A stretch of 64,000 bases of DNA, from positions 1-64,000 of IMG/VR virus record IMGVR_UViG_3300023174_000102; one strand, 5' to 3'. Of this stretch, positions 14,446 through 62,005 are shown piece after piece (position 1 is the stretch's first letter; each line of letters begins with the position of its first letter). The notes beneath the pieces are model-generated. The model had not been told where the DNA came from, ran no database searches, and was given only the letters and a program-made list of their open reading frames with translations. This DNA comes from a virus. A program made the position numbers and the translations under genes.

Positions 14446-14452
14446 TGTGGTT

Positions 14453-22912: not shown

Positions 22913-22930
22913 TACAACTTAATATACGAG

Positions 22931-22963
22931 AGGCTCAATTCTTCGGGATTGGGCCTTTCTTTT
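22931..22963 (+). terminator. Rho-independent terminator after the tail tube gene
   Basis: AGGCTCAATTC pairs with GGATTGGGCCT (two G-U pairs) around a short TTCG-containing loop, followed by TTTCTTTTT. A TTCG loop is especially stable. The T-run leads straight into the next -10 box. Confidence 0.85.
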
Positions 22964-22966
22964 TGG

Positions 22967-22972
22967 TATACT
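22967..22972 (+). promoter_or_regulatory. Extended -10 of a leaderless promoter
   Basis: TGG-TATACT ends exactly six bases before the ATG at 22979. No -35, as that region is taken up by the terminator. Confidence 0.6.
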
Positions 22973-22978
22973 TGTATA

Positions 22979-23656
22979 ATGGCAACAAGAATTTATGATA
23001 AAAAACAGTTTAGTCTTGTAGATGGAACTAAAATTTATGCTACCCCATTAAAAATAAAATATCTTAGAGAATTTTTAGAAGAATTCGATGCAATCAAAAA
23101 AGCAAAAACAGATGATGAATCAATATCTGTTTTAGTTAACTGTGCATTAATTTGTATGCAACAGTATGCTCCACATATTCAAACTGTAGAAGATTTAGAA
23201 GATAACCTAGATCTTCCAACGATCTATGAGGTAATAGATATTGCAGCAGGTATCAAGATTAACGAAAAATCTGATGATACCGTAAAATCTCAAGCAGTTG
23301 ATAGCGGTTCATCTTGGGAAACTTTAGACCTAGCAAAACTAGAATCAGAAGCATTTCTTCTTGGAATCTGGAGAGATTACGAGGAACTAGAACAATCTTT
23401 GTCTATGGCAGAATTAACTGCAACAATAAAAATAAAAAGAGAATTAGATTATAGCGATAAAAAGTTTGCTGCAGCGATGCAGGGTGTAGATTTAGATAAG
23501 AATTCTGGAAGTGGTAATGCATGGGAAGATATGAAGGCCAAAGTTTTTAGCAAGGGTGCAGCAACTAGTGGAAATGATATTCTAGCCTTACAAGGTAAAA
23601 ATGCTGAAAAGGCTGGTTTTGGAATAGGAATGGGCCTTGACTATGAATCATATTAA
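22979..23656 (+). CDS. Tail assembly chaperone, long form
   Basis: A 225-residue protein starting at the leaderless ATG at 22979 (an in-frame TTG 30 bases upstream lies before the -10 box and is not used). Residues 1-~105 (FSLVDGTKIYATPLKIKYLR ... EDLEDNLDLPTIYEVIDIAAG) are homologous to the whole next protein. Residues ~110-225 add a T-type extension with EAFLLGIWRDYEELEQSLSM and FAAAMQGVDLDK, the hallmark of the frameshifted C-terminal part of lambda gpGT-like chaperones. It should help assemble tube protein on the tape measure. Here the long form is an ordinary gene, not a frameshift product. Confidence 0.75.
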   Translation: MATRIYDKKQFSLVDGTKIYATPLKIKYLREFLEEFDAIKKAKTDDESISVLVNCALICMQQYAPHIQTVEDLEDNLDLPTIYEVIDIAAGIKINEKSDDTVKSQAVDSGSSWETLDLAKLESEAFLLGIWRDYEELEQSLSMAELTATIKIKRELDYSDKKFAAAMQGVDLDKNSGSGNAWEDMKAKVFSKGAATSGNDILALQGKNAEKAGFGIGMGLDYESY

Positions 23657-57913: not shown

Positions 57914-57943
57914 TTGACAGCCCTCTCTGGGTGATGGTATACT
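57914..57943 (+). promoter_or_regulatory. Full-consensus promoter before the proteasome-like gene
   Basis: TTGACA (57914-57919), 18-base spacer, TGG-TATACT (57938-57943). Eight-base inverted arms CCCTCTCT (57921-57928) and AGAGAGGG (57960-57967) enclose the -10 and start site; TTTT follows, so the same sequence can act as a hairpin terminator for the holin operon. Confidence 0.7.
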
Positions 57944-57974
57944 TAAGTGTTAACTATCTAGAGAGGGTTTTGTC

Positions 57975-58499
57975 ATGACCTGTATTGTTGCTTTACGCCA
58001 TGAAGATAAAATTTATATGGCAGGAGATCGTGGAGCATCAGATGATGGGGTCATTCTTTCTCTTGAATCACCTAAAGTTTGGAAAACTGGACCATACCTA
58101 ATTGGATATGCTGGATCAATGGATGGTGAAAGAATGAGACATAACTTTAAACCAACTGCTCCAAATATTAAAGATACAGACAAGTTTATGCAAACAAAGT
58201 TTGTAAAAGAACTTCGTGAATTTTATAACGAGTTCTGGATTGACACATCAAAAGATGGAGAGTTTAGTTTAATAATTGGTATTCGTGGTGAAATATATGA
58301 ACATAGTTCTGGAGATATGTCTTTATCTAAATATTCATTACCATATGTTTCTATAGGCTCTGGATCAGAATATGCATATGGAGTTATGTATGCAACAGAT
58401 AAGCAAAAAAATGCAAGGAACAGAGTACAGCAAGCAGTATCTGCAGCAATTAAATTTAACCCATCATGCATGGGACCAGTTGACATCATAAGTGCTTAG
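57975..58499 (+). CDS. Proteasome/HslV-like Ntn hydrolase
   Basis: A 174-residue protein whose start MTCIVALRHEDKIYMAGDRG matches proteasome beta subunits and HslV. Removing Met exposes Thr1; counting from it, Asp17 (GDRG) and Lys33 (ESPKVWKTG) fall exactly at the catalytic places, and YAGSMDG gives the usual Gly-Ser turn. It should be an N-terminal-nucleophile peptidase or a related hydrolase. It lies in its own unit behind a strong promoter. The unusual GAGAGGG site precedes ATG. No ATPase partner is visible in the window. Confidence 0.8.
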   Translation: MTCIVALRHEDKIYMAGDRGASDDGVILSLESPKVWKTGPYLIGYAGSMDGERMRHNFKPTAPNIKDTDKFMQTKFVKELREFYNEFWIDTSKDGEFSLIIGIRGEIYEHSSGDMSLSKYSLPYVSIGSGSEYAYGVMYATDKQKNARNRVQQAVSAAIKFNPSCMGPVDIISA

Positions 58500-58508
58500 G
58501 AGTATACT
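58480..58508 (+). promoter_or_regulatory. Full-consensus leaderless promoter
   Basis: TTGACA (58480-58485), 17-base spacer, TATACT (58503-58508). The ATG at 58515 follows six bases later, so the mRNA starts at the start codon. The -35 lies in the end of the proteasome-like gene. Confidence 0.7.
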
Positions 58509-58514
58509 TAGTAT

Positions 58515-58733
58515 ATGAGCGAAGAATTTGAAGAGATCCTGAAGGACATTCAAAACATAGAGTCAGATTTTGATGAGTTTGAGATTTGGCTTAACAATGG
58601 AATTGAGCGGGGATGGGTAACAGAACCATTCTGTAATACTCATGAAGGAGATCCTTACATGACAGATGAAGAGCAGCAAGAGTGGGAAGAAGGCGGAGAC
58701 CCATGCCAAGTAGTTTTAAAAATCAAACAATAA
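58515..58733 (+). CDS. Small acidic hypothetical protein
   Basis: A 72-residue very acidic protein (EFEEILKDIQNIESDFDEFE, TDEEQQEWEEGGD) with two Cys. Leaderless start with a full-consensus promoter. No family recognised. Its acidity would suit a DNA-mimic or inhibitor type of protein, but that is a guess. Confidence 0.65.
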   Translation: MSEEFEEILKDIQNIESDFDEFEIWLNNGIERGWVTEPFCNTHEGDPYMTDEEQQEWEEGGDPCQVVLKIKQ

Positions 58734-60562: not shown

Positions 60563-62005
60563 ATGATAATTCTTGGTATTAATGAAACTACACATGACGC
60601 TTCAGTATCTTTGATTAAAGATGGAGAAATACTTTTTGCTGGTCATTCCGAAAGATATAGCAAACAAAAAAATGACTGGTTCACAAACAAAGAACTTATC
60701 AAAAATGCGATTCAGTATGGCTACCCAGATCAGATTGCCTATTACGAGAAGCCTTTACTTAAGAAACTTAGAGTAAAGACTAGGGGTGGATTTGGTGGAG
60801 ACAAGCCATGGTTTGAGTCTACAGAACTTGGGGACCTGCCAAGAAAAAATTTTGGTCACCACTACTCTCATGCCTCAGCGGGATACTATACAAGTTCTTT
60901 TCATGATGCCGTTATTGTTGTACTTGATGCCATAGGAGAGTTTAATACATCTACAATTTGGGTTGGTGAAGGAGAAAAGATTAAACTAAAATATAAACAA
61001 AACTATCCAGTTAGTTTTGGTCTTTTCTACTCAGCATTTACACAACTTATCGGACTTATGCCAAACCAAGAAGAATACATTATGATGGGTATGGCAGCAT
61101 ACGGTGACTGGCGCAGATACTATAAAGAAGTTGACGAATATTTCCCTAAATATAATAAGCAAAAATACAACTTCCATAAAGGCATCCATGACTGGGGCAT
61201 GCCAATAACAGAGCAAGATAAATTTGATATTGCTGCTGCAGTCCAGGTTGTTTACGAACAAAGACTAAATGATTTTATGCATATGGCCTATTCAATTACT
61301 GGGAAAAAGAATTTAGTCTTCATGGGTGGTTGTGCGCTCAACTCATCAGCAAACACTTTGCTATGGAATATATTTGACATGGTTTGGATCATGCCAAACC
61401 CAGGTGATGCTGGATCATCATTAGGTGCAGCAGCAGCCCTGTACGGAAAGCATATCAACTGGAAGACCCCATACCTTGGCTATGATCTTGGCGGAGAATA
61501 CCCAGTCCAGCAAATTGTGGACGGTATATTGAAAGATGGAATCGTAGCAGTAGCATCAGGCAGAGCAGAGTATGGACCAAGAGCGCTAGGCAATAGAAGT
61601 ATCCTTGCGGACCCAAGAGATCCAAATATTAAGGACAAGGTTAATTTAATTAAACAGAGAGAGTTGTTTAGACCTTTTGCTCCAGTAGTTTTGGAAGAAT
61701 GTGCATCTACGTGGTTTGACATGGACTTTGCAAGTCCCTATATGCAGTATACAGTTAAGTGTCTTAAGCCAGAAAAAATTCCATCCGTTGTTCACGCTGA
61801 TGGGACATCTAGAGTTCAAACAGTAAATAGAGATCAACATAGGGGTTTGTATAGAGTTTTAAATAAGTTTTATGTTGAAACTGGTGTTCCAGTACTGCTC
61901 AATACTAGTCTTAACATAAAAGGTCAGCCACTACTTAATGATGAAACAGACATCATTAAATGGGAAAAAGAATACCTTACAAAAATTATTGGACCAAATT
62001 TATGA
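60563..62005 (+). CDS. NodU/CmcH-type carbamoyltransferase
   Basis: A 480-residue enzyme with TTTGGAGAG before ATG. It has the N-terminal Kae1-like fold (LGINETTHDASVSLIKDGEI, FGHHYSHASAGYY metal/adenylate motif, VVLDAIGEFNTSTIWVGEGE, MGGCALNSSANTLLWNIFDM) and the C-terminal domain with SGRAEYGPRALGNRSILADP and VLLNTSLNIKGQPLL. It transfers carbamoyl from carbamoyl phosphate through a carbamoyl-adenylate to a hydroxyl. In phages the target may be a modified base or a sugar. It overlaps the next gene by four bases (ATGA). Confidence 0.85.
   Translation: MIILGINETTHDASVSLIKDGEILFAGHSERYSKQKNDWFTNKELIKNAIQYGYPDQIAYYEKPLLKKLRVKTRGGFGGDKPWFESTELGDLPRKNFGHHYSHASAGYYTSSFHDAVIVVLDAIGEFNTSTIWVGEGEKIKLKYKQNYPVSFGLFYSAFTQLIGLMPNQEEYIMMGMAAYGDWRRYYKEVDEYFPKYNKQKYNFHKGIHDWGMPITEQDKFDIAAAVQVVYEQRLNDFMHMAYSITGKKNLVFMGGCALNSSANTLLWNIFDMVWIMPNPGDAGSSLGAAAALYGKHINWKTPYLGYDLGGEYPVQQIVDGILKDGIVAVASGRAEYGPRALGNRSILADPRDPNIKDKVNLIKQRELFRPFAPVVLEECASTWFDMDFASPYMQYTVKCLKPEKIPSVVHADGTSRVQTVNRDQHRGLYRVLNKFYVETGVPVLLNTSLNIKGQPLLNDETDIIKWEKEYLTKIIGPNL

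Follow-up and report, generated by a model that had tools for sequence, protein, structure and literature searches.

AAH proteins are proteasome homologues of alpha-proteobacteria, Actinobacteria and many phages, and the cited part of PMC8665760 reports no Actinobacteria-specific phage that carries one. The PPH proteins, described in the same part of that source, are phage-borne group I homologues of about 140 amino acids without helix H2. The homologue BPH, in the cited part of PMC5777263, showed epoxomicin binding at Thr1 and no cleavage of model substrates. A BPH-like gene is named in a Citromicrobium phage in a passage of PMC8953757 that includes no testing of it. A literature search found no functional study of any phage proteasome-like peptidase. 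As for gene control, the cited passages of PMC3014915 and PMC2988022 describe phage T4 genes e, soc and I-TevI, in which a hairpin hides the ribosome site in long transcripts. The T4 late promoter sits in the 5' strand of this hairpin, and the proximal RNA is translated.

Here, we describe a peptidase gene of a freshwater phage, and its leader, in a window of 64,000 nucleotides, the whole stretch of DNA analysed, which comprises positions 1 to 64,000 of the 98-kb IMG/VR record IMGVR_UViG_3300023174_000102. The peptidase is a confirmed new member of an already published family, whose wide occurrence in phages was known before. The control element ahead of its gene, which varies a known arrangement, is more interesting than the protein; its hairpin was absent from an earlier, sequence-only reading of the locus. 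The literature search found nothing in print on such a promoter-hairpin leader of a peptidase.

The peptidase and its family

The peptidase gene (57975-58499, plus strand) encodes an AAH-like Ntn hydrolase of the proteasome/HslV type, 174 residues long, with the N-terminus MTCIVAL. The protein passes the gathering cut-off of the Pfam Proteasome family PF00227 (E 9.8e-06; 25.8 bits against 22.4). Its best PHROG match is phrog_1040, 'peptidase HslV family' (E 2.4e-21, residues 1-173), which provides a family label only. A family profile of 64 relatives matches BPH at E 1.8e-12 and HslV at 8.9e-12. Matches to the NCBIfam proteasome and HslV models are all far under their cut-offs, and we therefore regard the peptidase as a divergent member of the superfamily, neither an HslV nor a 20S beta equivalog. 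Identity as an HslV equivalog was ruled out by the TIGR03692 score of 21.6 bits against a cut-off of 157.75. PADLOC gave no match for the four proteins submitted. The ORF is a homologue of proteasome/HslV-type Ntn hydrolases and not a chance pattern.

The AlphaFold2 model of the peptidase, computed from 64 sequences, has a pLDDT of 94.6 and a pTM of 0.90. The best solved match is BPH (5ovt; Z 20.4, rmsd 2.3, 165 aligned residues), tied with HslV (6kr1; Z 20.3, rmsd 2.6, 162 aligned residues). Residues 2 to 174 of the model align with residues 1 to 186 of the BPH chain, which places the N-terminal Thr at the Thr1 position. BPH (5ovs, 5ovt and 5ovu) also shares Thr1, Asp17 and a catalytic Lys with the peptidase and is described without an apparent unfoldase; it differs in its sequence, about 19-25% identical, and, in the cited part of PMC5777263, in having its Lys at residue 37 and a long acidic pore loop. 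HslV has the same fold and an aligned Thr1 region, but the peptidase does not reach TIGR03692, and PF07724 finds no HslU-type ATPase in the phage record. Helices 50-57 and 68-86 of the model lie between strands 41-46 and 98-103.

With Met removed and Thr numbered 1, the putative catalytic residues are Thr1 (codon 57978-57980), the nucleophile, Asp17 (58026-58028) and Lys33 (58074-58076). The sequence-only reading had proposed a proteasome/HslV-like protein with this complete triad, and family membership, profile, predicted fold and conservation bear it out. Related phage proteins with the same residues were looked for and found: IMG/VR holds 525 relatives, and all three residues are kept in each of the best 80 of the 525, which are 83-95% identical to the peptidase. 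Among phages in one collection, 158 records match by tblastn, all at less than 60% identity, and 28 of them cover at least 80% of the query in one place. Asp166 and Ser169 of the proteasome have no clear counterpart; the best 80 of the 525 relatives contain Asn or Ser at position 162 and Cys at position 165.

Two alignments (A1 and A2) diverged too much to be used in a degenerate scan, and scans with single proteins found no locus for the Vibrio homologue and two for the Salmonella homologue. The wider family was gathered instead with a DNA pattern for MTCIV[A/G] plus GD, which yielded at least 119 hits in new loci. From 119 pattern hits and the window protein, incomplete sequences and those outside 140-260 amino acids were left out; the 105 that were kept, window protein included, were reduced to 61 at 75% identity. 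Because the pattern fixes T2, C3, I4, V5, G17 and D18 (Met-counted), and thus Asp17, by design, only Lys33 and the other columns are independent evidence in this set. Lys33 is present in 61/61 sequences, and Gly44, Gly128 and Gly130 are each present in 60/61. Several homologues start with TTG or GTG. In Moorella phage MTATph1 (L083:4001-4043), the annotated start lies downstream and removes Thr1; an upstream TTG start gives back the N-terminus TCIAG. Aeromonas phage 2L372D (L087:4570-5454) has two adjoining genes annotated 'peptidase HslV family'.

The peptidase fits the published AAH group, an assignment that rests on taxonomy and length. Like the AAHs in the cited part of PMC8665760, it is a compact group I homologue near BPH and HslV, has no propeptide and belongs to a family of bacteria and many phages. 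The N-terminal pattern occurs in 98 stretches of a genome collection, where an earlier scan of genome contigs made without the pattern had found no relative. Eighty titles of these stretches are mostly of Azospirillum, Rhizobiaceae and Actinoplanes-type genera, alpha-proteobacterial and Actinobacterial names that match the AAH distribution, and 82 of the 98 translations are 160-200 amino acids long. In the seven loci looked at, out of 98, the bacterial neighbourhoods of the family seemed uninformative. PPH was considered and rejected: the peptidase is likewise phage-borne and of group I, but PPH is expected to have about 140 amino acids and no H2, whereas the peptidase has 174 and a pair of helices where H1 and H2 would lie. 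A tree of 84 rows, reduced from 188 at 70%, mixes viral with bacterial rows and sets the window clade among viral ones. Support is 99 for the window clade and 92 for a ten-row group, values from a short search with no bootstrap.

The phage record is probably that of an actinophage, because it encodes a WhiB protein over the cut-off (E 1.4e-12, 71165-71338), which is taken as an actinophage mark in the cited part of PMC6802176. In this the peptidase differs from the AAHs of PMC8665760. A peptidase homologue of 178 amino acids with a GTG start is present in OX376640, and OX376641 is also matched by tblastn. OX376640 fits phage E7 of 'Ca. Planktophila' LanE-43, as described in the cited part of PMC10202952. 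Another homologue is found in Mycolicibacterium palauense (L346:2539-3090), possibly in a prophage. One ORF among its neighbours we take, by its likeness, to be terminase-like.

The promoter-hairpin leader

The peptidase gene has its own promoter (57914-57943, plus strand), with a -35 TTGACA (57914-57919) and an extended -10 TGG-TATACT ending at 57943. The promoter claimed by the sequence-only reading is thus present, though 'full consensus' was slightly too strong for TTGACA-18-TATACT, which has 11/12 matches, a spacer of 18 and the extended TG. The left arm of the hairpin (57919-57933), identified by folding and in the arm list, overlaps the spacer between -35 and -10. The right arm (57955-57969), supported by folding and arm swap, holds the Shine-Dalgarno-like AGAGAGGG (57960-57967). 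The promoter therefore forms the left arm and the loop, and AGAGAGGG lies in the right arm at Shine-Dalgarno distance from the start. The TGACA of the -35 (57915-57919) also pairs, with a TGTCA at 57971-57975 whose last base is the first of the start codon.

The 86-nt leader has a minimum free energy of -33.9 kcal/mol (z -5.05), and 0/200 shuffled sequences were as stable. Among 55 gene leaders of the window that were folded, that of the peptidase is the most stable (-28.7 against a mean of -9.7, s.d. 5.5). In folding, RNA begun after the -10 is devoid of the left arm and forms no comparable structure. Across 38 leaders with the hairpin, the mean unpaired probability of the Shine-Dalgarno region is 0.14 in read-through RNA versus 0.51 in promoter-initiated RNA. 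The promoter-hairpin cassette occurs once in the record, and the best of 109 shuffled promoter-like sites formed 8 pairs versus 11 in the real cassette. A search of Rfam with the leader gave no match.

Of 45 distinct leaders, 38 retain the hairpin, with changes that compensate each other. These 45 were derived from 104 leaders, in which overlapping contigs are counted more than once and 95 have the hairpin; the native duplexes range from -19.4 to -31.3 kcal/mol. MAFFT aligned the arms poorly, so duplex energies and an arm swap were used in place of pair counts. In 21 leader classes, native duplexes have a mean of -21.4 versus -18.6 after swapping, and 0/20000 permutations were as good, in a test that ignores shared ancestry; L054, L203 and L136 have no recognisable -10 and were dropped from it. 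The arrangement recurs in leaders L180 and L197 on a stem of unrelated sequence, and the protein of L180 is 63% identical to the peptidase. The -10 core TATAC is invariant over 41 aligned leaders, the 45 distinct ones less L054, L203, L107 and L136. The start context TGTC[A/G]TG is present in 25/45 distinct leaders, and pairing with the start codon is thus not general.

Seven of the 45 distinct leaders (L048, L054, L055, L107, L136, L152 and L203) have no good hairpin directly upstream, and gene insertion explains only L048 and L054. The relatives L107 and L136 are about 40% identical to the peptidase, and L203 about 52%. Among the matches listed, the cassette leads directly to the peptidase in 157/166 loci and to an inserted gene in 9/166; contigs recur among these loci, which represent 82 distinct neighbourhoods. 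The peptidase follows the insertion in eight of the nine (in L310 by tblastn); the ninth, L233, stops short of where the peptidase would lie, but L049 from the same contig shows it. A tetrapyrrole-methylase-like gene (PF00590; L054:5159-6004) is located exactly between hairpin and peptidase and overlaps the peptidase start by ATGA. In a second lineage, a 238-aa ORF without a Pfam family is inserted (L048:5241-5957, likewise L049 and L051), and L224 and L310 contain starts similar to that ORF. The full cassette stays at the head of the operon in both lineages (L054; L048/L049/L051).

A promoter-embedded hairpin was not found in eight other phage homologues and L088, of which the GC-rich L084 folds strongly though, and a hairpin of the peptidase type was not seen in the leader of the OX376640 (E7) homologue. 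A sister clade encodes a version of the peptidase of 188-189 amino acids. Its -10 element lies 5-8 nt ahead of the ATG in 23/23 leaders, and a strong hairpin is present in 0/24 leaders (the 24 include L208, outside the clade). RNA begun at these promoters would be leaderless, so that only the proximal RNA could be translated.

Gene neighbourhood

The large terminase, orf53996, orf57381, the peptidase and an acidic 72-aa ORF are present in 34/34 loci with enough flank. Other neighbours are less constant (orf55396 in 32/34, orf58742 in 29/34 and orf57610 in 26/34). The sequence-only reading had set the peptidase among lysis genes. What remains of this is a weak holin match of orf57610, directly upstream (phrog_443, E 7e-4), which has a better match to a nuclease-labelled family; orf57381, two genes upstream, has no Pfam or phrog match. 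The acidic ORF (58515-58733, plus strand), which contains Cys and His residues, follows the peptidase in all of these loci and has no match in the phage collection. A Nol-like carbamoyltransferase gene (60563-62005; phrog_1601, E 9e-105) is also near the peptidase in the window and was matched in the flanks of only 4/34 relatives.

The next promoter (58480-58508, plus strand) overlaps the last peptidase codons, and its -10 ends 6 nt before the following ATG, as in a leaderless type. In most of the best 80 of the 525 relatives, such a promoter likewise lies within the last part of the peptidase gene. The -10 elements of window promoters 22964, 38959 and 58480 end about 6 nt before the starts at 22979, 38974 and 58515, and the GTG at 14447 is even closer to promoter 14437. 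Promoters that abut start codons suggest leaderless mRNAs in this phage. Some promoters of the window have an extended -10 TGGTATAMTT and no clear -35. Within 22920-22979, a leaderless-type promoter is immediately preceded by a hairpin that resembles a terminator and has a T tract.

Proposed control and alternative readings

We favour, as reasonably probable, an explanation in which the gene encodes an AAH-like Thr peptidase that is predicted to be made only from its own promoter by means of a hairpin that hides the Shine-Dalgarno sequence. Its computed basis is the protein family, the fold, residue conservation, the hairpin, the coupled change of the arms and the retention of the cassette after insertion. 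Host methionine aminopeptidase would expose Thr1, which, judging from the family, Lys33 and Asp17 would activate. By analogy with BPH, the peptidase would probably work without a dedicated unfoldase, and an assembled ring or a smaller oligomer may act on a limited range of polypeptides of the phage or the host. In read-through RNA from the side of the terminase and the holin-like gene, the hairpin would fold and hide the Shine-Dalgarno sequence. RNA begun at the gene's own promoter would be without the left arm and translatable, and the peptidase gene would form an expression unit of its own. The enzyme's activity and substrate, its oligomer, the block to translation and the timing are what we infer.

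The arrangement resembles that of T4 genes e, soc and I-TevI in that the Shine-Dalgarno sequence lies in a hairpin whose left arm is missing from the predicted proximal transcript. It differs in the proximal promoter, which is late in T4 and of host type, with -35 and -10, in the peptidase gene; the timing may therefore be the reverse of that in T4. With a host-type promoter, the gene is predicted to be active early or throughout and to stay silent in late read-through RNA.

The hairpin might instead serve chiefly to end transcription of the upstream operon, as an intrinsic terminator, its overlap with the promoter and the hiding of the Shine-Dalgarno sequence being incidental. The GC-rich stem is followed by T residues (TTTTG in the window, six T in L180 and L197), and termination would also insulate the peptidase gene. 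However, the T tract is only 3-4 long in most leaders of the window clade, the loop is long, a terminator scan restricted to loops of up to 8 did not list the hairpin, and the right arm, rich in purines, is spaced from the start as a Shine-Dalgarno sequence would be. We consider this reading unlikely, and a terminator role nonetheless a serious rival or partner of the hiding of the Shine-Dalgarno sequence. That the inverted repeat is a DNA operator, bound by a phage or host repressor of the peptidase promoter, seems improbable. The repeat overlaps both -35 and -10 and is imperfectly symmetric, but its stem sequence changes while pairing is kept, where conservation of sequence would be expected of a protein-binding site, and the spacing between the arms varies.

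The protein itself allows two further readings. Proteasomal ATPases exist in some Actinobacteria, and a host AAA+ unfoldase could feed the peptidase. The statement of the sequence-only reading that no ATPase is visible holds for the 98-kb record, which may be incomplete: PF07724 has no match in it and the two matches of PF00004 are both under the cut-off, the host being outside the search. This result favours a host partner, but BPH is likewise without an apparent one in the cited part of PMC5777263, and we give the host unfoldase a low probability. It is similarly improbable that the peptidase is a non-proteolytic or degenerate Ntn protein. Connectase, a proteasome homologue, is a ligase and not a protease according to the cited part of PMC8665760, and BPH is inactive on model substrates (cited part of PMC5777263); against this, the nucleophile and the Lys are conserved in relatives of the peptidase, and epoxomicin bound to Thr1 of BPH, which has the same three residues.

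Phages often carry proteasome-like peptidases (one collection has 158 records with a match), yet we found no report on their function. If the AAH assignment holds, the peptidase would fill a gap in the cited part of PMC8665760, where Actinobacteria-specific phages with an AAH are missing. Since 'Ca. Planktophila' is a cultured member of an abundant freshwater lineage, the homologue in its isolated phage provides a system for laboratory work. The sequence-only reading had suggested that the peptidase may cut a phage or host protein at a given time, and the hairpin is an indirect hint that expression of the peptidase is restricted; a conserved element that seemingly restricts its timing suggests that the level of the peptidase matters, and the predicted timing can be tested. 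We speculate, with somewhat less than even confidence, that two related lineages independently reached control of the peptidase by transcript origin, one by the hairpin and the other by leaderless RNA, begun at or close to the AUG, so that its read-through RNA would lack a ribosome site; this would imply an early or dose-limited proteolytic job. If this is true, synthesis of the peptidase would in both lineages depend solely on the gene's host-type promoter and stay outside late structural transcription.
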